From the NCBI GenBank assembly GCA_031763025.1, contig JASSKH010000006.1, positions 455,380-519,379 of the forward strand: a stretch of 64,000 nt of DNA, read 5' to 3'. The notes below the pieces were generated by a model that had not been told where the DNA came from, searched no databases, and saw nothing but the letters and a program-made list of their open reading frames with translations. Shown in pieces: positions 3,301 to 55,036 of this stretch. The stretch is from Macrocystis pyrifera (Eukaryota > Sar > Phaeophyceae > Laminariales > Laminariaceae). The position numbers and the translations under genes are program-made. Numbering within the stretch: the stretch's first letter is position 1; each line of letters starts with the position of its first letter.

Positions 3301-3441
3301 CTTGTTTAACATCTCACGGTGCTTTTCGCTTGGTGTGACCAATGTCTCTCTGGGGGTTGAAAAGCCGACGAGTCCTGTCCAGGCATTGTAGGGATGCGAG
3401 GGTATATGGCCATACGACTACGGTCATGCACGATATCGGGT

Positions 3442-3491
<50 letters not shown>

Positions 3492-7047: not shown

Positions 7048-7048
<1 letters not shown>

Positions 7049-7315: not shown

Positions 7316-7329
7316 ACGGGTGGGGGGGG

Positions 7330-7403: not shown

Positions 7404-7429
7404 GGGGGGAGGGGAGGCGGGGGGGGGCG

Positions 7430-8014
7430 TACTCATTTGTTACTTGCGTTAGTCATTTGACCCTTGACCACGCATCCCTTTCGAGAAGGAGCACCGTTCC
7501 TACTCCTAATAGAGACACCTCCAACAATTGGGCGCTCATTACGTTGTTTCCAAATATTACATAGAAACTTTTTGCTGATCTTATCCCCTTCCTGTTTGGC
7601 CTCCTGTGGCCACCATCTATCTCCTAGGATAGCGATCGTTTTCTCGCTGCTATTCATAGTATCAAACTCCTCCATGTCACATTTGTCTATTTCCCTCATC
7701 ACCTCTTCCAACACATCCCGTTCCTCCTTGAATATTTCACATTCTCCTACTATGTGAGTTCTACTCTCTATTGCTTTGTCACATGGGCACATCTGTGCAT
7801 CTACTTCCTCCTCCTCCCGGTTACTGGTAAGCCTCCTTCTTTCTGGCAGGTCCGGGTCCCCTACACGAAAGCGCAGTTTCAGCGTTTTTGCGAAGTCCAT
7901 TGGGCCATGCAAATGCGTTTTCATTCCTATTCCTTCCCTCAATCCCCCGTATATCTCCAAGTGTTTTTCCGATTCCACCTTGTTTCTTAGCGCTAGCCTT
8001 TCCCTTCTTTCTAT

Positions 8015-8016
<2 letters not shown>
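7430..8016 (-). mobile_element. poly(C)-tailed LINE, 3' end with reverse-transcriptase C-terminus
   Basis: The minus frame encodes about 195 residues ending at a stop near 7433. It includes RFRVGDPDLPERRRL, then the zinc knuckle CPCDKAIESRTHIVGEC that typifies non-LTR reverse transcriptase tails, then ISKKFLCNIWKQRNERP. Directly after the stop the element ends in GAGTACG and a C-rich run (G-run on the plus strand, 7401-7428). The 5' side is cut off at a 30-base G-run (8017-8046), so the copy is 5'-truncated and sits inside an older C-tract. This is the longest copy of the family in the window. Confidence 0.75.
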
Positions 8017-8112: not shown

Positions 8113-8152
<40 letters not shown>

Positions 8153-8154
<2 letters not shown>

Positions 8155-8417
8155 CTTTTTATCATGCATGGCCGTAGTCGTATGATCGTAGACCCTCGCA
8201 TCCCTACAATGCCGGGACGGAGCGCGTCGGGTTTTCACCGACTAGGCAGGCATTGCTCCCACCAAGCGCAAAGCGCCGTGAGGTGTCCGGCGAGTAGCAA
8301 AGAGGGTTAAGTGCATCTCATCAATACTAAGAAACGCTTGTGGGGCGGACTTGCACATGGATGGCAGCTCCAACGACACAAAGAAATTTCCAGCGTGGCC
8401 CCTTCCAGAGACAGCCA
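8153..8417 (-). mobile_element. poly(C)-SINE, 5' truncated
   Basis: Reverse copy of the 3' half (ATCATGCATGGCCGTAGTCG to GACAGCCATGGGAGCGA), ending at another G-run. It lies just 3' of the CBS gene's stop codon. Confidence 0.7.
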
Positions 8418-8454
8418 TGGGAGCGAGGGGGGGGGGGGGGGGGGGGGGAGGGGC

Positions 8455-34632: not shown

Positions 34633-34708
34633 TGCTCCGTCTCGAAAGGGATGCGTGGTCAATGGTCAAATGACTAAGGCAAGCAACAAATGAGTACCCC
34701 CCCCACTC
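34633..34708 (+). mobile_element. poly(C)-LINE 3' fragment
   Basis: About 68 bp of the LINE 3' end (TGCTCCGTCTCG, GGGATGCGTGG, GACTAAGGCAAGC, ATGAGTAC) followed by eight C. It is preceded by a 15-base C-run, so it lies inside an older C-tract. Confidence 0.7.
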
Positions 34709-34953
34709 CCCAACGTAACCCCTCCTCCTCTCCCCCCTCTTCCCCCTCCCCAGTCAAAATACTCGTAAAGTAATTGAGCAAGACCCTACCAAGTACTGAC
34801 TAAACTTACCATTAACCTCCCCCCCCTCACCGAGTATACCCCCCCCCCCTCCCTTATCCTCCCCTTCCGTCCCTTTTCCCCCTCCCTCAACCCTCCCCAC
34901 CCCCCCCCCCAGTCCTCAGGCTATGGTGGACGTACATTTGCAAACGACCCGGC

Positions 34954-35147
34954 TCAGTAGATAAACGACCACAACCGCAGGCCGAAGTCCCCGCGGCCCG
35001 ACCTCGACGCTAATGCCGCCAGGATCGGTCGCTTCGGGTGAAACTTGGCGGAGTTAAAGCCAGCCGAATCTAGGCCCACCGAATCGAATGAGTGGGCGTT
35101 CGCCCCGGTCTCCACCTCGGCCTTACATGGAAGGTAGGCATGTACGG

Positions 35148-35178
<31 letters not shown>

Positions 35179-38100
35179 CGGGGGGGTGTACTCAGTGTTT
35201 GCTAGCGTTAGTCAGTTGGCCATTGACCAGGCATGCCTTTCGAGACGGAGCACCGTTACTACTCCTAGTAGAAACACCTCCGCGAGCGGGCGGGGGAGGG
35301 GGGAGGTACTCATTTGTTGCTTGCCTTACAGTACGCAATTGACCTTTGACCACGCATCCCAGACATTGCTTGCACCAAGCGCTAAGCGCCGTGAGGTGTT
35401 GGGTGAGTCGCATGAAGGGTGAGCTGCATCCTACAAAGAACCGCTTTAGAGGCGGATTTTCTTGCATATGAACGACAGCATCAATTAATTGATTTAATTT
35501 TTGGTGTGGCCGCTTCCGGAGACAGCAATGGGGTTACTCTGTAACTGCCTCGTGGGTATCGCATCATCCCCCCTGTGCGGAGTGAAGGTTCTCCCCGCAC
35601 AGAAATGATCTAACTTAACCGCCAGCCGTGGTTACCGCCAAAAAAAAAACAAAACAAAAAAAAAAAACGGTACCCTGGCTGTCTAGCTGACGCAGTGAGA
35701 GGAGTGTTTTACACCGTCGTCGCCACCCGACGCCAACCCAACCAATATTTATACCAGGTATATAAAATAGCGTCGGGGGAGGAGGGGGGGGGGGGAAGGG
35801 AAAGTCAGCAATTATTATTGATAACAGATCGGTGGAGGCGTATTGGGGTAGGGATGGGGGGGGGGGGGGGGGGGGGGGGGGGTTTGGGGGGGGGGGGGGG
35901 GGTCGCCCCACTGTGCGAAACCAAAGCTACTCATGCTACACCAGTATACCAGTACGAAACCCTCGGGTTTTCAAGTCAACCACATCCCGAAGGGGGACCT
36001 TGTATCAGCATGCGCTATATAGCTATCAGACAATGCTAGGCCAGCCACCATGCCACGGAACCGTGGCCGTGAGCGAGCCTGCCGTTGGGGGTTTGGACTC
36101 ACGACTTGCACGGGTGCGTCGAGCATGCTGATCGCCAGGAATTGCCCATCCGGACTGAAGCTCACGGACCGGACGCCCCCCCTACAGTAGTGTTTCAAAA
36201 GCCGGCAGAGAGAGAGAGAGAGAGACCCGCCGCAGAAGCACGAAACAATTGAACGGGATACAACGGCACAACCGAACGAAAAAACGAAGGGGAAAAAGAA
36301 AACGAAAAGACAAGTGAACAAAAAAAAAAACCGGGGGGCGTGCCGAACGAACGCACATAAGAAGGAACAGGGAAAGAAAAGCGTGGTACGTGCGTATGTA
36401 TGTAAGGGAGTTTTGATGCCGCATGGCAGAGAAAACTGGCACACAGAGAACAAGCGGTCTGACCAACAACCGACCAATCGATTGTCCCAACGAATCAGTG
36501 TATGAACGAACGAACGAACAGACCAACGAACAGACGATTGACCGACCGACCGATTGTCCAACCAAAGCGAAAAAGATGAAACGAAACAAAAACAATGGGC
36601 GAGCGAGCGAGTTGAGTGGCGAGATAAAAAAAGAAACATTGAAAAACGACACCTCAAGGGTAGACGAAAAAACGTTAAAAAAAACGGCACCCCACCTTTT
36701 CGGGGTCGGGGGTCCCAGACAGGGGGGGTATTTCCTACAGATTTACCTAGGGTTTCTAGGAGCAAAAGTAAAAACCTGGCCTACTGGAAAAAATGACATA
36801 AAACGGTACACCCGTGATTTTTTTGCCAGTTTACGGTACAATAAGAATCCAAACAAGGAAATAAAGGTACACCAAACCCTAGTTAGATGACGCTTGCTGT
36901 CAAGGTATACTTTTTTTCTGACAAAACATCCATGTCCATCCGTCCGAGTAACAGAAATGACAATAAACGGTACACCAGTGTATTTTTGCAAGTTTACGGT
37001 GCAAAAAAAAAACCCGAGGTAATCAGGGCACACCAAACCCAAGCTAGATGACGTTTTATGTCATGGTTTACCTTTTTCTCGTAAAAAAACAATGTCTGGT
37101 GTAGCTTATAATTACGAACAGAAACCGCATTCATGAATACAAGCGCCTTCTCGTACTCGTATTCAGACGAATAGTCAAGCGTAGCTTATATTTATAAAGA
37201 AATCATATTTCGTTTCGTGTGCGTGCGTGTACTCAGAGCACGGCACCGCGGGCGAGCCCTACGCCGTCCCGGGTGTCAGCGGGTGCTGGCAGATAGAAGG
37301 GGGGTTGCAAGGAGCGCGGTCGCCGTTTTCGTGGCTAGGCGTCGCGTGTGTCCCGAGACACGAGGGAAACATGAATCGACCGTGTCTGGTCTCCATCTGT
37401 GGAATTGTGGATATAATTGTAAGGTCTATAAGGGTCATTCGGGATTGCAATATAATATTCAAGCGGTGCTTATTATTGCGACCAAGCTGAATTTCACAGA
37501 AAGAGCTACGCAGTCTGAACACCAACTTTGTCGAGCTGGCGAACGAGGGCCATGGTGAGCATCGGGCTTCACACGAGGCGGGCGACGGGGCTCACTGTGG
37601 CAGAGAGGGAAGAAAGTTTTACCCGGACCGAATCGGTGGTGATGTGGTCCCGAGACGGGCGGGCGGCGTACGAGGCTGAGAGAGAAGCTCTGCTGCTCGA
37701 TATTTTCTTTTTGACCGCTTCAAGGTGTTCCAATCAGGCAGAAAATTACTACATGAAAGGGGACGGGGATTTTTTTCTTTCCGAAAATTTCGGTTTCATT
37801 TTTATTGTTTGTGCGGTGCTGCTGTGCCGTGCTGTGATTTCCCTTGCGTACATACAGCATATCAAAAGAAGGAAAAAAGTACCCTACCTGGGGTATGTAC
37901 GTATGTACGGCTTACGGCTTTCGGTTTGTTCTCCTGAATGAGCATGTGGAGCTCTTGGCTTTCACAAATCACCTGGTTACACCTGATTGTTTGGACCGTC
38001 TGTTGCGTCCCATTCTCGTTCATGAATACAAGCGCTTTCGTACTCGTGCTCGTACTCGGTACTTCAAAATCACTGGTACTCGGGAGTCAACGACTGAGTC

Positions 38101-39944
38101 CCGATGACTGGGCACAATGGTATACTCTGCCGACCTTCTAGTTTGCAGTATGCAGTTCTCGTGCCGCTGCTGCATTTTCACTCCTACCCAGAATGCACCT
38201 GACCTCTGCAGTATAGTGTTAATTGTATCGCTGCTGCTTTTTTTCGCTCCTACCCCAAATGCACATGCATGTTATTGTTTCTGGCCGACGTCTTTGCGAA
38301 CGTATCGTTCCTGCATTTAGGCCGCTTTTTTAAGCCCGACCAATCCCTGAACTTTCCATGCCTCCGTCCAACCTTGTATTAATGGTAACACCTAGGGTTT
38401 CCCTGCTCTACAACTGTGAAAAAATAGCTGTGACATCTAAGGTTTCGTCGGATTCCATCTTTGCAAGCGGGGTAAGATAACTCCGACCGCGCCTACTACC
38501 GGCTAGGGTAATAGGGAATTATATATATGTGATGTCAACAATCCGCAAGGAGAAAGCGAGGGGATTCATGAGCAAACCAAAACAAGCCGTCTGGGCGCGT
38601 GCGTGCGTGCGCCCGAGGACGGTCAAACCCTTTCGTCGACGCATGGCATGGCATGGCGCGACGCGACGCGACACGACAGTCAGACAGCGCGGCGACGTAC
38701 TTGGCCGATTCGCTTTGGGCAGTGCCACCAGCGGCATCAGCAGCAGCAGCAATAACCATTAGGTTGCGTCCGACAGCCAACCATGTTGCTCATATTTACA
38801 GCTACATGTGGGTCTTATTATAGCTAGCCTCAAAAGAAAAGGCATGCCTTCAATAATGCCTGAACTGCCCTGTTTTCGGAAGAGCGTATCCGAAGCGCTG
38901 TTTATCATGCCCATCTTTTCGCGAGGTAAAGAAAGGCACGCCCAAAGGCCCCTTTCGAGCGACGGCAAAAAACGCCGTCAGTCTGGAGCCTCCGAAAACC
39001 AAGGCATAGGAGATACAAGGTATACATTCATAGAGGATAACAGCCCTTCTACAGCAGTACCACCACCAGAGGTCTGCTGGCATCCAGAGCACCTCGACTC
39101 CTGTGAAATCACAACAACCGCCCGCTGAGTGGTACCATGCCTCGGAAAATCGAAAACCATACGCTGTGATACAAGTAGGCGCTCGCTAGCCTGCAAGACA
39201 TATATATGCCTTGATCCTCTCTGGATGTCAGAGAGGAGAAAAATTGGCGGCAAAAAAGCGCGTGATTTTACAGCAACCGCTCGCACCGCGTGATGGGCGG
39301 ATGATATTCTACAAAATGGTGTCCGGCTGATACAATGGTTGATGCGAGGACCCGCACGGCACGGCACGGGGGCAATCGACACCAAAGTTATCAACCATTG
39401 TTTCAGTCGATATGTTCAGGGGTCCCAAGGGTTTTAGTTAAAAAGAACGCCTGAGCGGCCTTTCCCTTGCTGGAAGAGCGTGCCTGTTGCATGGCGCACA
39501 GCTTTCGTGCCTATCTCTCTCGCCCACCCTCTTTAACCGCGGCAAAAAGAGGCTTTTCAAGCGACCGAGAATAACGCCGTGATATGGTCTGGGAAGCTCC
39601 CAACACCAAGAAACAGCCTGCGTCGTCCGTGGCATGTGCTGTGTTGCGCAAGATATAGGCGTTTTACCCCGTGCAGGAAAACGACTCGACAGTTCTCGGT
39701 GTGGAATGTGCCCTGGGGGCGCTCAAAAGGTTTCAGGCATGCCTTACGTAATGCAAGTTTTTCAAGGCATCTGTCTCAATCAGATGTACACGTTTTAAAG
39801 CACGTTTCGACGTTTCAGGCATCTCTAAACCCATCGTGCCTTGTATCTGATTAATTAAAAACTAACACTGCGGCGCGACTATCGTATCCTCACGTGCCTA
39901 TAAGGCCAGCGCCTTGTTACAGCTTATCAAGTGTCGAGGGAAAA

Positions 39945-39981
<37 letters not shown>

Positions 39982-42900
39982 AACGAAACGGAACCAACTG
40001 GCGGATACATCAGGAGTACATAAAGCACCTCGGTACACGAGGAAGACTAAAAACAAAAATCTCCGACAAATAAAGGCAAAAACATCCACGAAACCACCAA
40101 GCAGAAATAGGGCAGCCCCGTGGCGACTTCTAACTTTTTCGCAGCAAAAAACAGGTTGAACCTATGTAAATACCGGCGTCACACGTATCAGCGTTAGCAT
40201 CAGTGTTGGATATCGTATCGGACGATTCGACATTTATCGAAATATCAAGTACCAGGTATCAAAATATCGAACTATCGATGTTTATACCGTATTGAAACCA
40301 TGTTTTGTCCCTCCCATCCCCTGTGGCCTCTCCTTGTTCCATATTCAGATACCGGTCGAAAACTCCTCGCTGTATCAACGAAATCGTATCGATTCGTTTT
40401 TCTTTGTTCATCGGTATCGTATCGTGTCGATTTTTTTTTTATTGTGCGATATGTATCTAACGTAAATCGGCGTAGACAGGCCGCTAAGAAAAACGCCTCT
40501 GTTTGCAGGCGATAAGTCGATACAACACAACGGAAGCGCTACTCTTAGGGGTGGGAATGGGTTCGTTTTTTCAAGTACATAAAAAAAAAAAATGTTGCAT
40601 GGTCGATATCTGGGAAAATAAAAGCTGTAGGAAATTGACCAATCCGTGATCGGGGAAAAACACGCTTGTCCACCAAAAAAAATCCGTTCGATGATGCTGC
40701 CTCTCAAAAATAAAATAAAAGGCAGTGCCGGCATCGACGTCGCTGCATTGAGCTGTATACGAGCTGAAAAAAAGTCAGTCTTGCTTTTTTCACGAAACGT
40801 GCTGCAGGACAGTGCACAACCAACCCCAGAGCGTAGAGCAGCAGCGTAGACACGAACGCGCGAGCGTGAACGCATCGCACGTTCCTGGTGGACCCTTGTG
40901 ATTGGCGGCTGGCAGCACGAGAATGCTGCTCTCCCTGTGAAACACATCTTGGATAGATCAAGTCGCAGTACGTGGTCCTGGTTTACTGCTGGTGGGCACA
41001 TGTAAACAAGAAGAACATACCCACACACAGCATTGACATTCGGCTGCGCGTTGCTATGCTGCACTTCGCCGAGGCCGGGATTTCGACGGCGCTGCCTGCA
41101 CCTCCGTGGAAGCGTGCCCCCTCTCTAGCTCACGGGCAAGTTGTTGCTGTGCGTGCAGCTACTAATAGACTTGAGCCTTGCGGCCAAGGCTGCATTAACC
41201 ACGCGCGTGAAGTTCTGCATGGTGCTGCTTGTATGTACTCGTACGTACCTACCACTTTGTCCGGAAATGTAAGGGACTGTTTATTTTCATATTTATACTT
41301 AAGCCATTCCTATAATTCCGGACAGAGTGGTACGGTTGAGTATTTTTACTCGATCGTTTTCTCACGTGAGACAACAGTGATGCATTCGCATCTGACCGCT
41401 AGTGGTGACTCGCTTCCCGCTGCATCAAAGCCCGATCACAGATGGTCTTCGCTGCGGAGGTGATTGCGGGTGTGATGGCGATCGCTCGGCGTGCAGCCGC
41501 GTTCATGTCTGACACCGTTTGCCCGATAATGAAGACTGGACGTCCTTTTTTTATCTCTGGATATTTATCGTCGAATTTCCCATCAACAATTGGCTCATCA
41601 AAAGAGGGTCAACTGCTGGAGCAAATTTCTTGTCGGCTACTCGTCCGATTCAATCGAGCTTTGCATTGCTGGGTGCGCAAAGTCATGGCGGAGGCGCTGA
41701 CTCGTCAAGTTTTTTTTAGTACTGCCAAGTAGTTCTTCCCTAGACAAAAATATACAAAAACAACCTGAAAATCGAGTTTAAACAATATTTCCACAAACAC
41801 AGACGGAAAAAAAAATCTGCAGATCAAAGCACAACGAATCACCGGCTCATTCTCCATTGATGGGATGTGTCTGTCGAACGCTATAGTCCAATTCGTTTCC
41901 TGTACGGATAAATAAGTTTAAATAAGGCATTCGGTGCTACACGTGAACGTAGTCTAAAACCAAGCACATGGGGTGGTGGCAGACTATTTTCAAATTTTGT
42001 TTTTTCGAATTTTTTTTCAACAAATTGTCGAATAGACTCGACATTTTTTTTTTTCGTGTGAACGAATCCGTTTCCATGCCCAACTGCGCTGTGCGGACTC
42101 ACTCGCAGTCGATGGTCCGCACGCACACGAAATGCTCCATTTCCCAGAGCGACACAAGCCCGTCGAGCCCTCCGCAAGCCAGGTACCTTCGAGATAAGGG
42201 GCGAAGGGAGAGGGTTGGGCAGAGGGGCGGGGGGGGGGGGGAAGTACTCGTTTGTTGCTTGCCTTACAAGGAATTTGACCAAATGACCGCGCGTCCCATT
42301 CGAGACAGAGCGGGGAAGGGGCACGCCTGAAGCACGGTGTGTTGTTGTACTGGCAGGCATCTTACCTTGGGTGCACTACCACCACCATGGTGCTTCAAGT
42401 CCAGCCAGGCCCTTCAACTGCCGTCTCTTTCCTACACGTCGTTTCTTGAGAAGAAACTGATGTTGTTTAACTACTAATACTGGTTTCATCCATACTCTAA
42501 CCCTGTAGTATACAGCAGAGGTGTACCCCGGCGAGTATCGGTCACAAACGGGTACATACTCGGATAGTTCTGAAAGAGAAAGCCGAACCCGTTTCGCGGG
42601 TAACCCGGTTTTCAGAAAAATAAAAACGGGTTCAACGGGTACTCGGGTAAACCCGGGTACTCGTTTTTCGTTTACGGCCATCAAGGGGCACCACAAGAGG
42701 AGGACAGGGTGTACTACGATTTGATGTCGAAACGAAAAATATAACCATCAACCGGCAATAAGAAAGCATCGGGTATTCAAGAATAATGCCAAGAGACTAC
42801 AACTAAACGCGATCAGCTTTTGCCTAAATATGTGTGCTTTTTCATGATATACATACACTACAGTGAACCTGGTACTGTTTCGCGCAGCTGCACACCATGA

Positions 42901-45900
42901 TGAGTATATGTACAAAGATAAAGAGGCATGCCGTACGAGTGCAGCGCGCGGCATATGTAGTCTATGGTTCGCACGCGAAAAGGCAGACACCCATATGGCG
43001 TACGAGTGTAGCGTGTGGCATATGTAGGCTATGGTTGCACCGCGAAAAGGCAGATAGATACCGACATCTACGCCCCTGAAGTGGGCACATCAACGAATGT
43101 GGCGAAAGGCAGGTTGACCAGATGTGCGCCATAGTAGGTGGCGTTCCCAAGTCTTCCATGATAGGCAGGTGCCATGGCTCAAGCAAAAAAAAAAGGCATG
43201 CCTATGTTGACCCCAAGGATATCGAAGAGATCAACACGACAGGCACGCGTGTAGAACAAAAACAAAATTTATGGACCGGTCACGGATCCCGTTTTCTGTC
43301 GATTTGAAAGGTTTCTAGAGATATTGTGAGGCATTCTAAGCGGGGGACATGTCACACATACGGGTACCCGGGTACTCGAAATCGCGGGTTTTGGTCACGG
43401 TTTTCCCCATCCGGCTTGTACCCGCCGGGTACCCGGGTTTCGATCATCCGGGGTACATACAGCTCAAGTATACACCACTCTGCACCCACAACACAAGGAC
43501 TACTGTGTGGCAGGGCTGTGAATCGCTTGTGTTTACCGAATTTTTTTAACATCGGTTTTCGGCGCGCAGGTGATAATCCGACGTGTCGGCGAGTCCGGCT
43601 GAGTGAGTGAGTCCTTAGCTTTGGATCTTTGTTTCTTTTTTTCTTCTAATAAATGTGGGTTGAATCCTAACCCAAGTCAAGCAAATCGGGACGATGTTTT
43701 GCCCATGTTTCGCACGTATCACAAAAAAACATCTCGCACGTGTCACAAAAAGAAACGTCTCGATTTTGCCAAGTTGCCGATTCCGATCGAATGGTTTACT
43801 GGGCGAATCGGCTCGGACTCACACACCCATACCGTGTAGGTACTACCGTAGTACGACTATGAAACGACCATTTTTTTTAACGTCCAGATTGACACTTCTT
43901 ACGCGCTTCCTGTACAACGATTTATGTTGTGCATGTACGGTATTGCATATTTCGGCTGCTTGCTCGCCGCTGCCCTTGCAACAGACACACGAAAACCACG
44001 ACAAAAAAACTAGAACCTAACGCGTGCGAGTTGCACGCAAACGCAAGAATCGCCACGTACTGTAGGTACCAGGCATATTATCTGCCTCTCTTCGGCGAGG
44101 AGTCACAGCAGTACATCAACAGCAGTGTGCCAACTTTTTGACTGGCGTGCGAAAGAAAAAGAATGGGAACGTCGGTCGCCGCCCTCGCGAACAGAATAAA
44201 CAAAAAACAAAACACAAACACAAACACAAACACAAACAAACCAAAACCTAAAGTGACGTAAAGAAACATACCGTAACGTAACGCGTGCGAGTTGCACAAA
44301 AAAAAGGCAAAACAGTGATACATACTGTTAATACTACGTAAACCAGCCAGAGGTTTTGCAAATCTGGAGGGATTCGTTGGCGGTATCTCAGAACGGCTGC
44401 AGGGTCAGGTGTTCAAGTACAGAGACCACTACACGCGAGTGCGTTGCAGCGACCGGGACTGGGGGAAGCTGAGCCGCCGCGAGGTGGAGTCGTTAGTCGC
44501 AGAGGGAAGGCCTTCCTTCTGCGTAGGCATCATTTTGTCTCGTCAGCGGGAGCTACTGCGGTAGACCAGCACCACTGCCCCGAATAACGCACAAGCACGA
44601 GGACGAGAACATCGATCGGTCGCTTCCTTTGATTCTCAATCAACGGAGGGCTGTGCCAACAGGCTCGTCGTAAAATGTTATTTCTCATCTTGGCACGTGC
44701 TTGCTCGTGCCTCACAGGTCTCAGCCAGGGGTACCCGGAGGAAACAGTCTCCTAAACGTGTAAGTGTGGTGAGCTTAAGCTTTACTTTTACCAATCCGCC
44801 GGAGGATGAAAATTAAAATAAAAAAGTATCCAAAACCACACACAAGCACCGCAATTTCCAACGCGCAGGCAAGGGGGAGGGGGGGAGGGTGTACTGGTGT
44901 ACTCGATGTAATGCATGGTCGTAGTCGTATGACCATAGACCCTCGCATCCCTACAATGTCGAGACGGAGAACGTCAGGTTTTCACCGACAACGCAGCCAT
45001 TGCTTAGCGGGGAGGGGGAGAGGGGGGTTATTCGATATCATGTATGGCCGTAGTCGTATGACCATAGATCCTCGCATCCCGACAATGCCGGCAAGGAGCA
45101 CGTCGGGTTTTCACCGACCAGGCACAGACACTGTTTGCACCAAGCACGAGGCGAAACGTGAGGTGTTCGGCGAGTCGCATGTAGGGTGAGCTTCATCTTA
45201 CTAAGAAACGCTTGTGCGGCGGACTTGGGCATGGGTGGCAGCTTCAATGAGTTGGTATATTTTCCGGTGTGGCCACTTCCAGAGACAGCAATGGGGGTAC
45301 GATGTAACTGCCTCTTTGGGTGCCTTACCATGTGCACTACGTGATGCGATCATCACCCTTGTGTGGAGTAAGGTCCCCCACCCCGCACAAATGACCCATA
45401 ACTCACTCGATCGCCAGCGGTGACCGACCGACAAATAAAAAAAAGAAAGGTACCCTGGTTGTCTAGCTTACGTAGTCAGCGGCATGTTTTACAGTGTCGC
45501 TACCAACCGACGCCAATCCAACCTAGATATATACATATACTAATAGTATATAGTGGGAGGGGGTACACGGTGTTACGCATGGCCGTAGTCGTATGACCAT
45601 AGACCAAGCATCCCTGCATTGCCGGGATGGAGCACGTCGGGTTTTTACCGACCAGGCAGACATTGCTTGCACCAAGCGCGAAGCGAAACGTGAGATGTTC
45701 GGCAAGTCGCATGAAACGTGAGCTGCATCCTACAAAGAACTGCTTGTGAGACGTACTTGCACATGGACGACAGCTCCAATGAGTTAATTTATTTCCGGTG
45801 TGGCCAAGCGTAGGCAGGTGGGGGGGGGGGGGGGGGGGTCATACACGCGAAAACACCTTTACAGGTTAATTGTCACTAAGTTAGGTTCGGATTGGCGGTT

Positions 45901-48900
45901 CCCAATCGAGTTCAGGAGAAAAACGGGTAAAAAATATTCTTGCGACAAAAAAATGCAAGGTACGAAACGTAGTAGGCAGGGGGGGAGGATAGGCTGCCAT
46001 GTGACTTCCGGGTCTGGGTTTTCAAGATCGGAAGGGAGAAAGAAAAAAAGGGCGGAGACAATAAATAGGAACGGAACGGAAATAACAAAAAACAGCAACA
46101 CAAAAAAAAAAATCTCAAATCTTGACCCCAAGTTCGATCGTCCTTAATACACGCATGTCGTAACCTTCTTCGGACTTACTTCAAACAGGGAAAACACTGA
46201 CGGTGTAAGAATTGCCGATTGCAGCAACGGTGATCGTGTGTGTGGGGTGATGGGAATTGGTGTCCGAGTTGCGATGGTTGAATGCAAAGAATCACACGGC
46301 ACGGCGGCAGGATTGGCGTACCTCATGTACTGCTGGGTGCAGGCTGGTCGTACCAGATTATTGATAGCACCAAAATTCATCATTACGGTGCCTGCGCATA
46401 ACATTTTCGTTGACCAAGGATTTCCGTCGGAAAGATAAGTTATAATGGAAAACCTTCCGGCATGCGCATAATCGGGGACGAAAAAACGATAAATATTGGA
46501 CAATTATGTTGGGAAAAAAAACATTTGCAGCAGCGGCAGCACTTGCAGGACGAGCAGAAGTCGTGCAAGCTGTAGTGCCCACCTGCAGCTGCAAGCAGCA
46601 GCAGCATGCAGAAGCAAGCTGCAGAACTAGTACGTAGCAGCAAGCACCCACAGGGAGAAATGCGGTCTATCCTGCGCTCCTCGACACTCGCTGCGCAAGC
46701 AACGCCGCCACAACGAGAAGATCGCTGTCCTTCTTCTTCGTTGTCCTCTCTGCCCGAGAAGGGGCCATTGCGGCGAAGATCAGGAGCGTGGCGGCAAGGG
46801 TGCACGCGTTTGCAGCAGCGCTTGTTTGCAGCAGCGCGTGCTCACTGCAGTGCTCACTTGCCGCAGCGCTTGCAGCGACAGCACTGCTGAAGCAAGCAGC
46901 ATACTTCATTGCAGCAGCAGCAGCACACTATATGCAGTAGCAGTAGTCCGTGACATGCAACAGCAGCAGCAGCAGCACACTACATGCAGTAGCAGTAGTC
47001 CGTAACGTGCAACAGCAGCAGCAGCAGCAGCAGCAATTCTTCTCGCAAAACCTCGCGGTTAGCAAACAAGACCCGAGGCCACTCTCGTGGCAATCTCGGC
47101 CAATCCTAAGCGTTCGGAGAGTTTTCGGCGAACAGAATGCAGCGGTCGAATCTAATAGGACACAAATATGGCAATACAGCAGCATAATATGCTATAAAAA
47201 AATGCATCATAAGTTTGTCATATTTGTGCACATTTGATTAGGCATTTTGATTGGTCGACGGCAATGGAAAAACAGATAATAAGCAAATTTCGTAATATTT
47301 TATTTTGCGCAGGCACGGCGGTGGTATTGTTGGGGTTGCGCTTCCTTCAAAGAGGACCGTAAAGGGGTAAAAAACATATTTAGGGAACAGCAGAGCAACT
47401 CATAGCGTTGACCTTGCTCTACAGCGCATTCGCAAGTACGAGGACGAGAACATCGGTCGTTTCGCTTGACCCATGACCGGACGAGGAAACAAGACCAAAT
47501 CACCATCCGCATCACAGCACCAAAATCATTTGGTGTGCTTCACGATAAAAAGAGAGGAAAGGGAAGGGCGTGAACGAGCAAGAGCCTTGAACAACACCAC
47601 CACCGCCAACAACAGCATCGACAACACCATGAACAACGACGAAATGGTTCATGACAGCAACATAACAGCAACAACAACAAAAAAAAAAAAAAAAAAAACA
47701 CCATCACCGCCAACGTTAAAAAAAAATCCACATCACCGACAACAAAATACGGCATTATCGTCAACAACACCAACAGACATCAACGCAACAAACACGTCAT
47801 ATCGCCAACAGCAACAGCTCACACCAAAAAGAACACCACCACCACCACCACAACCATCACCACCACCAACTGTAACATTGACACCATGGTGACAACAATA
47901 GCAACATCGACACCACCACCACCACCACCACCCTCAACCCTTGTAGGACCGCAGCCCCGTTCTTGGGACAAATTACTTGGAATTTGACTGATTTGTCCCC
48001 AAAATGATACTGCACTTCTAAAATGGTCAACATTGTCACCAGCATCAACACCAAGCACAGCAGCACCAACACCAAAACCAAACACCAACAAGAGCAACAT
48101 AAAAAAAAACACACCAACAGCAATGACAGCCTTTTAACAATAACAGCAACAGCTCGCACCAAAAAAGGACACCGCCACAACCACCACCCCCACCTACTGT
48201 AACGTTGACGCCAAGGCGACAACAACAGCGACATCAAACACCAACACCACCACCACCACCACCACCACCCTTAACAATGTCACCAACATCAACACCAAGA
48301 ACAGCAGCACCAACACTACACCAAACACCAACAAGAGCAACATAAAATAAAACACACACACCAACAGCAATGACAGCCTTTCAACAATAACAGCACCAAA
48401 AGGACACCGCCACCACCATCACCGACGACAAAAAAAGTACGCACCACCACCAACAACACCAACAACTACTGTAACACCATCGACGGCGACACCGAATCTA
48501 TCAGCAACACCCACCACCAACAGCAACACCGAAACAAACATATCACGAACACCGAATCTATCAGCAACACCCACCAGAAGTAACACCAACAACAAACATA
48601 CCAAAACCGAAAACAACACCACGGCCAACAGAAACAACAACAAACCATCAGCAACACCACCAACACCAACACCACCAACAAAAACAACAGCACTCCCACC
48701 TGTTGAACGGATCGATGTCCAACCCGTGACACGTAGCCGTGTGGGCGGCCGGCGTGGACTTGACCCGAGCGAGGGCCTTCGCAGGCCCGAAGGCCATAAT
48801 CTGGATCGCCGAACGGGGAAGGGAGGCGGATCGGGGCGAAAACGTGTGCGGAACGGACAAGACAAGACAAAACGAGCATTCTTACGGCGGTACACCAACC

Positions 48901-51864
48901 ACCATGACGGGATGGCACAGTAAGCGGAACCCACGATGGGACCCGAGGGTACACACACAAAAAAAAAAAAAAAAACGACGCCCCACCTTTTTTTGTTTTT
49001 AGCCCCCGACAGACAGGGGGGCGTACTCATTTGTTGCTTGCCTTAGCCATTTTACCATTGATCACGCATCCCTTTCGAGACGGAGCACCGTTCCTACTCC
49101 TAATAGAGACAACCTACAACAATTGGGCGTTCATTGCGTTGTTTCCATAAATTTCATAGAAAATTTTTGCTAGTCTTATCCCCTTCCTGTTTGGCCTCCT
49201 GTGGCCACAGACAGGGGGGGGGGGGGGGGGGGGGGGTTCTGAAACCAAGCACAACAACACTGGGAAAAACAAAACATGTTTCGTTCAATTTCTGACGAAA
49301 AACAAAAAAAACCCCAACCCGCTACCTTGTAGTTTGTTGTTTTCGATCCCCGACATGGTGACGAGTGTGGCTCCGTGTTCCGTTTTTTTCTCTTCCTCTT
49401 TTTTGTGTACCCCTGTATCCTCTTATATCGTATGTCCCACGTTTGCACACCACATTTGGGGGACCATAGTAAATAGGACCTACGGTAAACACAAAAACCT
49501 ATACATTTACCTATTTTTACTGGCAATATTCGGTCCCATTTACTATGGTCCCCCGTGACATATTCTCCCCTTATGTATGTAGAAGTCGCCGACTAGATAT
49601 TAGCCGGCTAGGTGGGTTCCATGACTGTTACGGGGGTCCATAGTTAACAGGACCTATGGTATACATAAAAACCTATATATTTGCCTATTTTTACCAACAA
49701 AATTTGGTCCCGTTAACTATGGACCCCCGTAATAGTGTACACGGCTGTGAGCTGACCACGTACAAGTCGCCGACTAGCTACTAATTGACTACGGAGTTTC
49801 CATTATTTAGTATTCAGGGCTGTGAGTTGGCAGACTAGAAGTCGCCGACCAGTTATTGCAGTAGTTGGCTGGGTGGGTCTCATGAGTAGTATATAGGGCT
49901 GTGATTTGGCCGACAGTAAATCGCCGACTATTAATAGTTACAAGTTGGCAATAATAGGTAGGCATGACGCTTAGTTGCGCGCGGTAATGTGCGGAATTCT
50001 GCTCCTTAGTACCCGACTTGGCTCGAATTGCGTTTGGGCTGTTAGACCTATGCCAATGGCAACGCGAAGTCCAAAAGTTTTCTAGCGAAAATATTACTTT
50101 AAAAAAAAAAACAGCCGATAATATCCTCTCGTACCGCCGCTGTGGGAAAAAAGGGAAAACATGTTTGATTTTTTTCTACTTTTTTTTTCTAACGGCTGCA
50201 GGCGGCGCAATTTGTTTTCTCTCGTTCCAAACTGTCAACACGCTGATAAAAATCAGTTCGTGCGACGATAGATGCTCGATCTCGACATAGACTCAGCCCA
50301 TGGCCAACCCGCTTGGTGTCGGGCAAGGCCAACGAGTATGGATAACGGCATCGAAGATAGAAAGTGAATACATGCTCTAGGGGGCGAGAGCTTGCCGGCG
50401 GCGTCCTGCGGTATCCTCCCAAACATGAAAAAAAACCTGTTTTTTTGCCATTCGAGACGGATAGAGAAATCTTGTCTTCTGTTTTGCACACACCAGCGGC
50501 TAACTGTTTTTTTATTGCACGCCTGGCCAGCGCCCGCCGCACGTCACTGACCATTGTGTGAAGACGGTGACCCAAGGGTGGGTCGGAGCCCCTAACGAGC
50601 GCACTCCGTTCAGAATTCCTGACGCAATCGTTGGTTTTGTCGATCGATGTCTGTCGAAGACTCGGAATCTCGCCGCTTCGAACCAAAGATCGGCCCGAGT
50701 TTTTCTCAAGCCGATCTTGGCCCAACATCGGCCCCAAGGTTTGCTTTTTTCGGGCTTTTCCAAATGTTGGGAACTTTTTTATATTTTTCTAAACGTGCCC
50801 ATCGGAAGCGTGTTCAAAAATGTTTTGGCGGGTATCTTTGGAATTCAAACTTTTTATCGATACTTCGCTTTCCCATCGGCATAGGTGTTACTAGGAATAT
50901 ACGGGGGGGAAGGTCAGTTATCAATAGTTTGGCTAACTTCGCCACACCCCAATAATTCAACTAATCCCACTAAGAACTATTAGTATTACGGGGGTCCATA
51001 GTTAACAGGACCAAATATTGTTAGTAAAAATACCTAAATATATAGGTTTTTATGTATGCCATAGGTCCTGTTAACTATAGACCCCCGTAATATTAGTAGT
51101 TGTCAAGTCAAGTCCAGCCGACTCATCACGACCCGCTGCCGAACACCACTCTCGACACCACCGTGCCGGCTCCTCTTCCTCTTCCTCTCTTCCTGTCCTC
51201 GACAAAACACACAGCGATTTAAGAAACACCATTCCTTCCTCGCTTCCTTTCCCTCCGTTCGTCTTTCCTTCCCCTCCTCTATTTCTTCCTCTCTGTAAGC
51301 AGGAAAAAATAGGCAATACGCCTTCCTTCCTTCTTCCTTCCTTTGTTCCCTGTTTTTTGTTTTCTTGTCCCTTCCAACCTTCAACATAATACACAAGAAA
51401 TAATAGATCATCAATAAGAAAATCTCGGCAAGAAACGAGACCAAGAGAAAAAAATAAGAAAACACAAACAAAACCCACGAAAAGAAAAACAAAATCACGT
51501 TAAATGTTTGGAAACAAACCAAATCAGGAAGACGAGAAAACCGCAAGCGAGGAAATAAAAAACTTGGAAACCCACCAACCAAACAAAGAAGCAAAAACAC
51601 ATCATACGCAACGAAACGAAAAATACGAAGGAAACACGAAAAGAAGCCAAACAAAACGGATCAAAGACAACAAAACGAACAGATAACGAACCAAGCGAAA
51701 ATAAACAAAGAAAACAAAAAGAGAGAATATAAGAAAGATACTCACGTCGATCGTTCCCTTCTCGGAAGAGTTCATGATGTACTCCCCATTGGGCGACCAT
51801 TTGTAGTCATGCACCGCGAACGGAAACTTCACCTGTGGCCAGGCAGGCAGGAAGGCAGGCAGGA

Positions 51865-51915
<51 letters not shown>

Positions 51916-52639
51916 CGGGCGGGAGGGCAGAGGTCCCAACCATGCGCCGCCCAGCCGGGGGTAAGAGGGGAAGAGCGTGAGCGGGAGAGTGGAGGAGGCA
52001 GAGGGCGGGCCGGGTGGGGGGGGGGGGGGGGGGCGTACTCATTTGTTGCTTGCCTTAGTCATTTGACCATTGACCACGCATCCCTTTCGAGGCGGAGCAC
52101 CGTTCCTACTCCTAATAGAGACACCTCCAACAATAGGGCGCTCATTAAGTTGTTTCCATATATTACATAGAAGCCGGGGGGGGGGGGTACTTTTATCATG
52201 CATCGCCGTAGTCGTACGGCCACAGACCCTCGCATCCCTACATGTCGACCCGGAGAACGTCGGGTTTTCACCGACAAGGCAGTCATTGCTCGGCGGGGAG
52301 AGGGGGGGGGGGGGTACTCGATATCATGCATGGCCGTAGTCGTATGACCATAGACCCTCGCATCCCGACAATGCCGGGAAGGAGCAAGTCGGGTTTTCAC
52401 CGACCAGGCACAGACATTGTTTGCACCAAGCACGAGGCGAAACGTGAGGTGTTCGGCGAGTTGCATGAAGGGTGAGCTGCATCGTCGCTTCCGAGGCGGA
52501 CTTGCACATGGATGACAGCAATGAGCTAATTTATTTCCCGGTGTCGCCACTTCCAGAGACAGCAATGGGGGAGGGGGTGTACTCGATACCATGCATGGCC
52601 GCAGTCGTATGATCATAGACCCTCGCATCCCTACAATGC

Positions 52640-52708
<69 letters not shown>

Positions 52709-55036
52709 GTACTCGATAGGAAAGATGTACTCGATCTCACGCATGGCCGTAGTCGTATGACCATAGACCCTCGCATCCCTACAATGCCGGGACGGAGCAT
52801 GTCGGGTTTTCAACGACCGGGGGGGGGGGGGGGGGGGGGGGCATGGCAACGCTGAATCTTCCACGTGATAAAAACGAAGGCAAGTACCGGAGGGAGAGAA
52901 AGGAAGACCATCTGTGACCACGGCATAAAACAGAGAGCTTGGAAGCCAGAGTGATGGTGAATGAAAAAAAAAAAAAAAATCGACGAGTACATAGGCCCAA
53001 TGGAATCAAGTATGGCCACGAGTTTCCTGTAAGTCTGGTGCAGGGCGAGATATAGGGGCATGCGTGAAAAACGAACCAGAATTGGCATCCGGGCACACGG
53101 GGTACTCCACAGTGCATACGCTATGCACGCGCACCAAACACGCCCTTGCCTTTGAAGCCCTTACCTGAAGGTCCCCCCCTCTGACCCTAAAATATATATA
53201 TATATATCTGGCGTATGTACCTGTAGGTTGGGTTGGCGTCGGTTGGCGATGACGCTGGAAAACACGCCTCTCACTGTGTGAGCTAGAGAGTCAGGGTACC
53301 GTTTTTTTTATTTCATTTTTTGTTGGTGGTCTCCACGGCTGGCGGTCGAGTTAGACCATTCGTGTGCGGGGAGAATCTTAACTCCGCACAAAGGGGGTGA
53401 TTGTATCACGTAATGTGTACCTGGTATATGGTAAGGCACCCACGAGGCAGCTACACAGTAAACCCAATGCTGTCTCTGGAAGTGGCCACGCCAGAAAATA
53501 AACCAATTCATTGACGCTGCCCAGCCATACGCAACAAAACCCGCCTCCAGCGGTTGATGGTAAGATGCAGCCCACCCTTCATGCGACTCGCCGAACACCT
53601 CACGTTTCGCTTCGCGCTTGGTGCAAGCAATGTCTACCTGGTCGGTGAAAACCCGATGTGCGCCGTCTCGGCACTGTCAGGATGCGAGGGTCTAAGGTCT
53701 TACGACTACGGCCATGCATAATATCGTGTATATCCCCCCCCTCTCTCTGCTATTATTTATATATTATATATGGGTTGGGTTGGCGTCGGTTGGCAACGAC
53801 ACTGTAAAACATGCCGCTCACTACACGTAGTGAGCTAGACATCCAGGGTACCGTTTTTTTTTTTTTTTTTTTTGGCGGTCGCCCACAGCTGGTCGTCTAG
53901 TTAGATCCTTTGTGCGAAGTAAAGAACCTTTACCCTGCACAAGGGAATTGATCGATTCACGTAGTGTTCAAGGCAAGGCACCCAAGAGGCAGTTACATGG
54001 TACTCCCATGTTGTCTCTGGAAGTGGCCACACCGGAAATTAAACTAACTCATTGAAGCTGTCATCCATATGCAAGTCCGCCTCACAAGCGGTTCTTAGTA
54101 GGATGCAGCTCACCCTTCATGCGACTCGCCGGACACCTCACGGCGCTTCGCGCTTGGTGGAAGCAATGTCTGCCTGGTCGGTGAAAACCCGACATGCTCC
54201 GTCCCGGCATTGTAGGGATGCGAGGGCCTATGGTCATACGACTACGGCGATGCATGAGATCGAGTACACACCCCCCCCCCCTCTCTCTGCACGCTCTCTC
54301 AACGCTATCTCTCACCGACTTGAGTTTCTTTTTCGTCCGGATGTCGTAGATCCCGAGGATGTCATTGTCCATGTTTTTCTCCCTGCGCGTGCTCCTGGTG
54401 GTCCATAACGAAGAGAGGGAGAGATACAGAGATATACTGCTGTTATCACACACATATATAGAGGGCTAGATCTGTGAGTCGAGACGACTTAGCCCCAAAC
54501 TGTAGTAGTCAATACTCGGGCTAGAACAGTAGTTAGTCGCTTCCCGGAGGTACCGACCACCCGCCACCACCGCCACCCCCACAACAACACCACCACCACC
54601 ACCACCACCACCACCACCACTACCAGCACCAGCACCACCAACACCATCAACACACCACCACCACCACCACCACTACCAGCACCAGCAGCACCAACACCAC
54701 CACTACCAGCACCACCAACACAACACCAACACCGCCAACGCCAACACTACCACCACCAACGCCAACACCACCACCGCCACCACCACTACCAGCACCACCA
54801 GCATCAGCAACACCGACACCACCAACACCAACACCAACACCATCAACACCAACACCAATTTAACTACAACCACTACAACTACCACCACCACCACGAACAC
54901 CGCCACCGCAGCCGGCGGCAAATTGTACGCACCCCATGGCGATGTAGTGCCCATCGGGGCTGTAAGTGACGCTGAGGTTTTCCCCGTCAGAGATGTGTTC
55001 CTGCACGGGCCTGCCGGGGGTGCGCACGTCCCAAAC
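34954..55036 (-). CDS. THOC3: THO complex subunit 3 (WD40, TEX1), 5' end not found
   Basis: Seven exons join in perfect phase on the minus strand: 55036-54933, 54394-54316, 51832-51746, 48800-48700, 42186-42103, 36181-36103 and 35121-34954 (stop TGA at 34956-34954), giving 233 residues. The order matches THOC3: VWDVRT, ENLSVTYSPDGHYIAMG, ILGIYDIRTKKKLKS, VHDYKWSPNGEYIMNSS, HTATCHGLDIDPFN, YLACGGLDGLVSLWEMEHFV, VRSVSFSPDGQFLAISM, then AEVETGANAH and FHPKRPILAALA. It should fold as the C-terminal part of a seven-blade beta-propeller that works in the THO/TREX complex, coupling transcription to mRNA export. THOC3 proteins are about 350 residues, so the first WD repeats (ending in a GDKTVR-like strand just before VWDVRT) lie upstream of 55036 and I could not find them. 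Introns are 0.5-6.5 kb and packed with repeats. Confidence 0.92.
35185..35283 (-). mobile_element. poly(C)-LINE 3' fragment
   Basis: About 100 bp of LINE 3' end in reverse, directly after a G-run (35152-35177 on plus). Reads GTACTCAGTG, then GAGACGGAGCACCG on the plus strand. Confidence 0.65.
35306..35762 (-). mobile_element. Chimera: SINE body fused to LINE 3' end
   Basis: Plus 35306-35360 is the LINE 3' end (TACTCATTTGTTGC, GACCACGCATCCC). From 35361 the sequence is the body and head of the poly(C)-SINE in the same orientation (AGACATTGCTTGCACC onward), running to its 5' head at about 35750 (GACGCCAACCCAACC). Read on minus, a SINE 5' part switches to a LINE 3' tail, skipping the SINE's own 3' end. 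Confidence 0.65.
36795..37085. repeat. Tandem duplication of about 157 bp
   Basis: Units start AAATGACATAAAACGGTAC (36795) and AAATGACAATAAACGGTAC (36955), in the DNA between two THOC3 exons (intron). Confidence 0.7.
37090..41245. other. THOC3 intron DNA, no gene recognised
   Basis: CAG run at 39948-39971, a repeat of CATGAATACAAGCGC (37133 and 38020), diverged repeats around AACGCCGT (38968, 39572). No supported coding sequence. Confidence 0.5.
41250..41332. mobile_element. MITE, CCACTCTGTCC family
   Basis: TACCACTTTGTCCGGAAATG to CCGGACAGAGTGGTA; TA duplication at both ends. Confidence 0.7.
42241..42312 (-). mobile_element. poly(C)-LINE 3' fragment
   Basis: Short reverse copy of the LINE 3' end (GTACTCGTTTGTTGCTTGCC on plus) beside a G-run at 42230-42240, close to a THOC3 exon. 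Confidence 0.6.
42921..43065. repeat. Tandem duplication of about 75 bp
   Basis: GTACGAGTGCAGCGCGCGGC and GTACGAGTGTAGCGTGTGGC start the two units. Confidence 0.65.
44319..44564 (+). CDS. Coding-like fragment without ATG, unknown
   Basis: The plus frame is open from 44319 to TAG at 44562-44564. From about 44358 it reads like real protein: FANLEGFVGGISERLQGQV, FKYRDHYTRVRCSDRDWGKL, SRREVESLVAEGRPSFCVG. Composition is balanced and free of repeat. There is no ATG in the frame. It sits in the 6.5 kb THOC3 intron on the opposite strand, so it may be an exon of a nested gene, a gene fragment or part of a transposon. A related 40-bp stretch following it (about 44592-44635) recurs at 47420-47462. 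Confidence 0.3.
   Translation, partial: YILLILRKPARGFANLEGFVGGISERLQGQVFKYRDHYTRVRCSDRDWGKLSRREVESLVAEGRPSFCVGIILSRQRELLR
44889..45010 (-). mobile_element. poly(C)-SINE 3' fragment
   Basis: Reverse 3' end fragment, truncated at a G-rich tract. The next SINE copy follows directly. Confidence 0.65.
45026..45548 (-). mobile_element. poly(C)-SINE, near full length
   Basis: Reverse full copy from ATTCGATATCATGTATGGCC to the head (ACCGACGCCAATCCAACC) and the AT-rich lead. Confidence 0.7.
45555..45815 (-). mobile_element. poly(C)-SINE, 5' truncated
   Basis: Reverse 3' half (CACGGTGTTACGCATGGCCG onward) inserted right beside the AT-rich 5' lead of the previous copy. Confidence 0.65.
46910..47035. 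repeat. CAG-rich tandem duplication, about 58-bp unit
   Basis: TATGCAGTAGCAGTAGTCCG and CATGCAGTAGCAGTAGTCCG; embedded in CAG runs. Confidence 0.65.
47570..48690. repeat. CCA/CAA-rich satellite with block duplications
   Basis: Trinucleotide-rich DNA directly beside a THOC3 exon (48700-48800). A block of about 300 bp (CAAGAGCAACATAAAA, CAGCAATGACAGCCTTT) is repeated at 47870-48140 and 48160-48390. Confidence 0.75.
47942..48030. mobile_element. MITE, TTTGTCCCCAAAA family
   Basis: GACCGCAGCCCCGTTCTTGG to GATTTGTCCCCAAAATGATA; inserted in one unit of a duplicated CCA-rich block whose other copy (about 48270) lacks it. Confidence 0.65.
49018..49205 (-). mobile_element. poly(C)-LINE 3' fragment
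   Basis: About 190 bp matching the LINE end at 7430-7610 (TACTCATTTGTTGCTTGCC, GAGACGGAGCACCG, CCCTTCCTGTTTGGCC), including the end of the reverse-transcriptase frame. A G-run (49207-49236) marks the truncated 5' side. Confidence 0.7.
49457..49558. mobile_element. MITE, TTACGGGGG family
   Basis: Complete: GGGGACCATAGTAAATAGG to TTTACTATGGTCCCCCGT. Confidence 0.75.
49575..49960. repeat. GTCGCCGACTAG tandem repeat
   Basis: Four degenerate units (near 49585, 49765, 49838, 49920), one interrupted by a MITE. Confidence 0.65.
49628..49733. mobile_element. MITE, GTTAAC subtype
   Basis: Both ends carry CCATAGTTAACAGGACC or its complement. It is inserted in a tandem repeat of GTCGCCGACTAG units. 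Confidence 0.75.
50985..51093. mobile_element. MITE, GTTAAC subtype
   Basis: TTACGGGGGTCCATAGTTAA to TTAACTATAGACCCCCGTAA with flanking TA. Confidence 0.75.
51836..51918. repeat. (CAGG)n microsatellite at a THOC3 splice acceptor
   Basis: GGCAGGCAGG array begins 4 bp upstream (minus) of exon 51832-51746, so it replaces a normal pyrimidine tract with CCTG repeats on the coding strand. Confidence 0.8.
52034..52172 (-). mobile_element. poly(C)-LINE 3' fragment
   Basis: About 140 bp of LINE 3' end between two G-runs (52017-52033 and 52175-52187), the first member of a stacked chain of retroposons. Confidence 0.7.
52187..52300 (-). mobile_element. poly(C)-SINE 3' fragment
   Basis: Reverse 3' fragment (TTTATCATGCATCGCCGTAG) between G-runs; second member of the chain at 52.0-52.85 kb. 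Confidence 0.65.
52313..52566 (-). mobile_element. poly(C)-SINE, 5' truncated
   Basis: Reverse 3' half (TACTCGATATCATGCATGGC to AGAGACAGCAATGGGG); third member of the chain. Confidence 0.7.
52576..52641 (-). mobile_element. poly(C)-SINE 3' fragment
   Basis: A 65-bp SINE end that stops inside ACAATGCC, replaced by a 66-base G-run (52642-52707), the longest in the window. Confidence 0.65.
52708..52819 (-). mobile_element. poly(C)-SINE 3' fragment
   Basis: A SINE end with the same doubled TGTACTCGAT leader as the copy at 8047, then truncated at a G-run (52820-52841). Confidence 0.65.
52845..52975 (+). mobile_element. tRNA-SINE body fragment
   Basis: Headless, diverged piece of the same SINE body (GTGATAAAAACGAAGGCA, CTGTGACCACGGC) ending in an A-run, beside a G-run in a THOC3 intron. 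Confidence 0.5.
53216..53745 (+). mobile_element. poly(C)-SINE, near full length
   Basis: Complete copy from an AT-rich lead and head (GGTTGGGTTGGCGTCGGTTG) to CGTGTATATCCCCCCC. Internal T-run at about 53301. Tandem with the next copy in the same orientation. Confidence 0.75.
53772..54292 (+). mobile_element. poly(C)-SINE, near full length
   Basis: Complete copy with an AT lead, head, an 18-base T-run near 53856, the ACCTCACGGCGCTTCGCGCT body and a GAGTACACACCCCCCCCC end followed by CT repeats. It ends about 20 bp from a THOC3 exon (54316-54394). Confidence 0.75.
54560..54900. repeat. (ACC)n-rich low complexity
   Basis: Trinucleotide-rich DNA filling most of the first THOC3 intron seen here, 33 bp from exon 54933. 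Confidence 0.8.

Follow-up and report, generated by a model that had tools for sequence, protein, structure and literature searches.

A LINE and a short SINE-like element of the brown alga Macrocystis pyrifera share a 3' end and have C-runs at both of their junctions

In the 537-Mb genome of Macrocystis pyrifera (GCA_031763025.1), the copies of a LINE and of a shorter, SINE-like family end in a common stretch of 65-80 bp that is followed by a run of C. C-runs are found at both junctions of these elements and in a fixed orientation, some of the insertions are flanked by target-site duplications, the copies nest in one another, and the stop codon of the LINE lies within the shared tail. The features were first seen in a stretch of 64,000 nucleotides (contig JASSKH010000006.1, positions 455,380 to 519,379 of the forward strand), referred to here as the window, which forms part of the genome of 537,376,219 bp in 223 contigs. 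Judged from the DNA alone, copying of the short element in trans by the LINE would be the simplest account of the shared end and the C-tail. As a whole, the data are probably best explained by a form of target-primed reverse transcription that uses poly(C) and a G-run where L1 uses poly(A) and a T-run.

The tail of the LINE reads GCTCCGTCTCGAAAGGGATGCGTGGTCAATGGTCAAATGACTAAGGCAAGCAACAAATGAGTAC, and that of the SINE-like element contains the same blocks in the same order, with differences in the loop and in the 3' stretch. A local alignment of the two tails scores 74, against a mean of 20.1 (sd 4.0) and a maximum of 42.5 in 2,000 mononucleotide shuffles; both tails are short, but chance is already excluded as the cause of their likeness at this score and, with the motifs in identical order, convergence has a negligible probability. 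Exact copies of a 64-mer of the LINE tail number 926 genome-wide and those of a 43-mer of the SINE tail 4,250, while the reversed control gave 0 in both cases. The pattern GTAC-N-C14 occurs 14,115 times in the genome vs 776 times for its mirror image, C14-N-CATG. Among the fetched copies whose sequence extends to the end of the tail, a C-run of at least 5 nt lies within 45 nt in 53/57 LINE and 99/106 SINE copies. A first-pass annotation of the window had proposed the common end and the poly(C) tail from eight LINE and SINE ends; all of these, and the motifs quoted for them, were found in the window, and both the alignability of the ends and the presence of a C-tail on both families are borne out by the score and the genome counts. 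To the LINE tails given there, at 7430(-), 34634-34696(+), 49022(-) and 52035(-), those at 35188(-) and 42244(-) are added, and at least 10 more SINE tails accompany those at 3391-3442(+), ~45029(-), 53730(+) and 54267(+) (Table 1). A hairpin of 5 bp, UGGUC-N4-GACUA, is present in the minimum-energy folds of both tails; no covariation was detected over 37 LINE and 52 SINE hairpins.

Table 1. LINE and SINE-like copies in the window (positions within the 64,000 nucleotides; Cn, a run of n C on the strand of the element).
Feature	Position	Strand	Details
Near-full-length SINE-like copy	2926..3442	+	followed by C47 (3443-3489)
5'-truncated LINE	7429..8016	-	open C-terminal frame ...GAPSRKGCVVKGQMTNASNK-stop, TGA in tail; begins after C30 (8017-8046)
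5'-truncated SINE-like copy	8159..8423	-	C40 tail (8113-8152); C22 upstream (8427-8448)
Tail-only LINE copy	34634..34696	+	GCTCCGTCTCG...GAGTA; C16 before (34615-34630), C8 after (34697-34704)
Two adjoining LINE tail copies	35188..35360	-	joined to 3' side of SINE-like copy (35360-35751)
Tail-only LINE copy	42244..42311	-	C13 tail
SINE-like head-to-tail array	44899..45806	-	
5'-truncated LINE	49022..49208	-	5' side: C23 (49214-49236) and TGTCT (49209-49213); 3' flank: C6 (49016-49021) and TGTCT (49011-49015), giving a duplication beside the C-run
5'-truncated LINE	52035..52172	-	C18 tail (52016-52033); adjoins C-tail of a SINE in the same orientation (C12, 52176-52187)
SINE-like head-to-tail array	52193..52821	-	C-runs up to C66 between copies
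SINE-like copy 1	53226..53730	+	C8 tail (53734-53741)
Full-length SINE-like copy 2	53751..54269	+	inserted at C-tail of copy 1; C11 tail (54271-54281); duplication TCTCTCTGC after the C-run on both sides (53742-53750, 54282-54290)

When the window copy 7429-8016 was used as a protein query, 16,839 candidates were obtained, and the 150 of these that were scored are 89-100% identical to it. The longest open frame among the copies fetched and translated spans 870 aa (L039), and the longest frame listed elsewhere reaches 1,137 aa. The reverse transcriptase (RT) was recognised in locus L037 as RVT_1 (PF00078, E=1.2e-30), and an R2 protein (E=1.5e-19) heads the PDB matches of the LINE protein, followed by an RNA-directed DNA polymerase (8c8j) and L1 ORF2p; a Cys/His cluster was read by eye in the ORF. 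In other LINE copies, an endonuclease-like region precedes the RT ORF in the expected place, in two adjoining pieces. It matches two APE-type families, PF03372 at E=8.5e-4 and PF14529 at E=2.3e-4, in each case below the curated cut-off, and the motifs GDFN, SILDF and TDHCLI were identified in it by eye. Summed coordinates give the LINE a length of at least about 4.1 kb between the left end of the L079 reference and the tail. The ORF ends with a TGA inside the shared tail, within ATGAGTAC, and the shared module corresponds to the last 19 codons plus the stop; it is thus both coding sequence and 3' end. Among the 30 best C-terminal LINE loci (L009-L038), GAGTACG followed by at least 8 C was found in 18. 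In a further eight loci (L011, L013, L016, L022, L027, L028, L033 and L036), the C-run follows a variant ending or stands in a sequence that escaped the regular expression, L015 carries only C3 after its tail, and L017, L026 and L034 were missed by the tail expression, a separate junction analysis giving C19 for L017 and C25 for L034. Both 5' truncation and target-site duplication were found for the LINE, the duplications in a minority of copies.

The short element is about 520 bp long and starts near TATATGGGTTGGGTTGGC. It contains an internal T-run, whose longest stretch ranges from 4 to 39 T in 33 full-length starts. Its size and tail are those of a SINE, as it had been called in the first-pass annotation, but the label does not extend to a Pol III head: ARAGORN found no tRNA in the 64-kb window, no Rfam family reached the gathering score in window 53400-54400, the A and B boxes are no better than those of shuffles, and a run of at least four T is present in 33/33 full-length starts. 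On the negative ARAGORN and Rfam searches and the shuffle-level boxes, a Pol III origin of the short element is not supported. The missing promoter features would also suit a short family that is a mere deletion derivative of the LINE and not an independent SINE, as would the grouping of a comparable Ectocarpus element with the LINEs in the main text of its description (PMC12477816). In the one 5' region compared, however, the 2.5 kb upstream of the LINE in L086 match the SINE reference in the T-run only, and derivation by deletion appears somewhat unlikely. In L006, L007 and the copy at window 14914, the SINE 5' part runs into ...AAGGTGCC; these copies probably represent further subfamilies, in which the same tail is joined to a different head. 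Elsewhere in the genome (G000 C125:1504375-1622775), exact SINE starts without an upstream C6 are spaced ~9-14 kb apart in a single orientation and may belong to a large tandem array whose units each contain one SINE.

The 5' junctions also carry C-runs. A run of at least 6 C lies within 25 nt 5' of the start in 45/62 LINE and 56/93 SINE copies, compared with 262/9,480 control positions, and in 42/57 and 52/86, respectively, when nine known duplicate loci are left out; for the LINE copies in loci L009-L038 the figure is 22/25. G-runs were found upstream of none of the 155 element starts (0/155), and A or T runs of at least 6 nt upstream of 0/62 LINE and 4/93 SINE starts. Genome-wide, C6 is located 3-28 nt upstream of 706/812 minus-strand full-length SINE starts, against a background of 434/12,800 (3.4%). 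For variable-gap patterns, minus-strand counts alone were used, since the plus-strand numbers (5,310 here and 356 for the module-edge starts described below) tally one locus repeatedly. Because 5'-truncated LINEs also follow C-runs, the upstream run belongs to the flank and not to the element. The C-run had been regarded in the first-pass annotation as a tail; it is a tail on both families but not a tail alone, the C-runs of the 5' flank and the target-site duplications marking it as a target as well. There are 27 copies, out of 125 with a 3' C-run, that have no C-run of at least 5 nt within 40 nt on the 5' side, and some of their 5' ends are not true ones (other SINE subfamilies).

These frequencies come from a non-random sample of loci. 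L009-L038 and L072-L085 were taken from the top of two protein searches, L042-L071 are the first 30 of the 4,250 places of the SINE 43-mer, some of them on near-identical small contigs, and L001-L008 the first places of an initial genome look-up; near-duplicates were partly removed from the 155-copy set. The counts of k-mers, C-runs, GTAC-N-C14, module-edge starts and SINE starts with an upstream C6 cover the whole genome.

Target-site duplications that flank the element together with its C-run, proposed as a check in the first-pass annotation, do occur. For a prefix test, the 155 copies were narrowed to the 100 that have at least 4 C near their 5' end as well as a C-run by the tail, and at least 7 nt are duplicated after the C-run in 7/100 of these insertions (mean 0.29 and maximum 3 in 2,000 shuffles). 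One of the 100 is the second window SINE, split from a merged hit and included manually, without which the count of duplications of at least 7 nt is 6/99. An earlier spacer-match test gave 13/59 eligible copies (mean 3.9 and maximum 10 in 1,000 shuffles); it did not capture full-length SINEs, as these begin ~14 nt before the reference start. Duplications are seen in the window at LINE 49022 (TGTCT) and at the second SINE, and elsewhere in L034 (GGTCCCGAG), L017 (GTACCAGG), L040 (GAGGT), L025 (GCCCGC) and L049 (TTCTACT), and the duplicated stretch may extend 1-3 nt into bases that also open the element. A non-C duplication visible in only 7 (at least 7 nt) to 11 (at least 4 nt) of 100 insertions counts against the model of target priming at C-runs.

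Neighbouring elements no more than 60 bp apart have the same orientation in 35/35 cases, and those at 61-1000 bp in 41, with 19 in opposite orientation. A C- or G-run separates the close neighbours in 31/35 pairs; some of the 35, of which 4 have no such run between them, may be pieces of one element, and the counts of C-runs of at least 5 nt in this analysis include some C5 runs of MITE insertions. The 5' C-run follows the same-strand tail of another element in 43/117 copies, near-duplicates included, compared with 10/1,304 for the G-run control, under a loose rule that asks either for the end of another element at most 110 bp upstream or for a one-mismatch occurrence of a tail motif. The nine known duplicate loci were left out of the neighbour counts and kept in the 43/117. 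Nesting takes the form of same-orientation insertion into the tail of an older copy, as exemplified in the window by the SINE pair 53226-54269.

Many LINE copies consist of the tail alone. The start falls in a 4-nt window at the 5' edge of the module in 12/62 LINE copies, two of which (L044 and L052) are near-identical loci. Across the genome, C5 lies no more than 3 nt from the module edge in 245 minus-strand matches, vs a total of 2 on both strands for a position 27 nt upstream. In the fetched loci, the two 20-mers compared, at the module edge and 27 nt upstream, are present 41 and 29 times, so that copy number is unlikely to explain 245 vs 2. Such copies would be accounted for either by drop-off of the RT at the bound module or by C-rich microhomology at GCTCC.

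The proposed mechanism involves two elements, a LINE whose endonuclease region is APE-like and its non-autonomous partner of ~520 bp. As the module of 65-80 nt is shared by both families, it is most likely the part recognised by the LINE RT. The RNA, or the first cDNA strand, would bear a poly(C) end, and the endonuclease would nick the G-strand of an existing C-run; the freed GGGG-3'OH could then pair with the poly(C) and prime the first strand. A cut in the other strand a few nt 3' of the C-run would duplicate (C)n together with some 5-10 nt. That duplication structure is present in seven insertions, and the order of the steps is our reconstruction. Each insertion preserves one C-run and creates another, and new copies settle head-to-tail in older C-tails, as the nesting observed shows; the first strand would often stop at the 5' edge of the module, which could account for the abundant tail-only copies.

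The weakest step of this model is the element-borne contribution to the 3' C-run, which is nevertheless favoured. In 22/32 LINE copies, the 3' run exceeds the 5' run in length (P=0.015), and longer 3' runs were noted by eye beside short tracts, namely C3 and C7 in L056 and C4 and C15 in L081. The C-run might instead derive from the target only, with an RNA that ends in GTACG or GTACA, an endonuclease that targets C-runs, and slippage that alters the 3' run. Equal medians of 12 (5') and 12 (3') over 94 pairs would be in line with this view, as would the SINE copies, whose 3' run is not significantly longer (24 longer and 17 shorter of 45, P=0.54); the lengths of the 5' and 3' runs are uncorrelated (rho -0.01). 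The excess of longer LINE 3' runs speaks against it, and so do the 3' runs of L056 and L081, which exceed their short 5' tracts, although post-insertion slippage could also lengthen 3' runs at tracts of C3-C4. A purely target-derived C-run is considered doubtful. An opportunistic, endonuclease-independent insertion at breaks in fragile C/G tracts is improbable: C-runs are indeed very frequent in this genome, but the strict orientation, with neither upstream G-runs nor inverted close neighbours, and the short duplications are better suited to a strand-specific nick. Taken to its full extent, target-primed reverse transcription at C-runs would make the LINE a C/G mirror of L1, with a poly(C)-ended RNA, an endonuclease that opens the G-strand, its own C-terminal coding sequence as recognition module and, judged from the tail-only copies, the 65-nt module as minimal mobile unit; together with its parasite it would have helped to fill the genome with self-perpetuating C-run sites. 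This wider picture is judged about as likely as not.

The genome contains 93,041 C-runs of at least 14 nt, compared with ~3 expected in random sequence of 25% C, and exact GTAC-N precedes 14,115 of them (15%), a lower bound that misses decayed tails. In the window, a script assigned the 38 C-runs of at least 10 nt to tails (15), 5' flanks (11, 5 of them both) or neither (17). As one run of the last group, ATGAGT-C22, clearly belongs to a SINE tail, the corrected tally is 16/38 at tails, 22/38 at tails or 5' flanks and 16/38 at neither. The statement that the tails account for most of the long G/C runs was thus too strong. Many C-runs do lie away from the element ends, and yet the enrichment at the ends is far above the 3.4% background. 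The unusual density of C-runs in this genome may stem in part from LINE and SINE insertion, alongside other sources. Clustering of the C-runs that are not beside these elements gave two local groups and no third dispersed C-tailed family. Window 7011-7330 (-) contains a pair of short units bounded by TGCTCTCG...CGGCAGAGCA, each of them followed by a long C-run (C28 and C37); they represent a C-tailed or C-run-flanked repeat without visible relation to the shared tail. In L014 (-), head-to-tail units of ~50 bp, AAAGCCTGCACCGTA...CGTTAAACACAGGA, with C-runs between them, occupy positions 79-420 and 2485-2600 and flank a LINE insertion.

The poly(A) tail of human L1 pairs with the nick site TTTT/AA. 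Under the proposed model, the elements of Macrocystis resemble L1 in that a homopolymer tail is matched to a homopolymer-like nick site, and differ from it in the use of C/G instead of A/T and in having a specific 3' module beyond the homopolymer. A close likeness by description is found in another brown alga, Ectocarpus, in which RTEX-N1_Ec32, a non-autonomous element of ~600 bp with more than 6,000 copies and a 5' part given as of undetermined origin, conserves its 3' end with the autonomous LINEs RTEX-1 and RTEX-2_Ec32 (PMC12477816). The interpretation as a LINE/SINE-like pair is sound as regards the shared 3' end, and a pair of this kind was already on record. In contrast, no mention of a poly(C) tail, of C-runs as targets or of nested copies was encountered for the Ectocarpus elements, and the terms 'homopolymer' and 'C-rich' are absent from the main text of that paper (PMC12477816). 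UnaL2 with the eel SINE and the TS SINE with an RTE element likewise combine a 'stringent' shared 3' end, of about 100 nt for TS, with a terminal repeat, which is TGTAA in UnaL2 and TTG in TS, as opposed to the C-run found here (PMC3747384). The plant and green-algal LINE tails consulted in the same source comprise (A)n, CA, CAA, CATA, TAA, ATT, CCAT and others, with no (C)n among them (PMC3747384).

Nested LINE clusters are known from Zepp of Chlorella and Coccomyxa (PMC3446292). Zepp is described as having an (A)n tail (PMC3747384) and one cluster per chromosome (PMC3446292), whereas the present elements involve C-runs and are spread over many contigs. A simple-sequence target is shared with Togen, specific for (TG)n, and with other microsatellite-specific non-LTR elements; the clades of the Togen type are reported to carry a restriction-like endonuclease (PMC4640811), in contrast to the APE-like region, a sub-threshold match, and the C homopolymer of the LINE studied here. 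Shared-tail LINE/SINE pairs, nested LINEs and microsatellite targeting are thus already known from these sources. No poly(C)-tailed or C-run-targeting LINE or SINE was encountered in the open-access literature searched, which probes such an absence only weakly.

If the model is correct, homopolymer pairing in target priming would be separable from anything special to A and T. A poly(C) LINE/SINE pair also raises the question of how the RNA gains its C tail, and the module of ~65 nt could serve as a natural minimal template for target-primed reverse transcription in vitro. Both families tend to land in existing C-runs, so that each copy can leave a site for the next. Assemblers and repeat annotators would then have to treat C-runs as possible element junctions.

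Other repeats were also noted. A palindromic, MITE-like repeat of ~95-125 bp with GGGACCATAGTAAATAGGACC-like ends is located at window 4971, 5963, 13394, 18710 and 33799, with further copies at 49460, 49634, 50992 and 55875, and in L074 a copy of it interrupts the LINE, with flanking ends resembling TATTAC...GTAATA. Window 23528-25589 holds arrays of a 42-bp tandem repeat, both direct and inverted. Finally, motifs of the EsV-1-7 domain (PF19114), which according to PMC12477816 has expanded in the brown algae and is known elsewhere mostly from giant viruses, are abundant in the genome, in keeping with a brown-algal host, with at least 150 matches over the cut-off among 1,585 candidates and 0/14 control genomes showing any.
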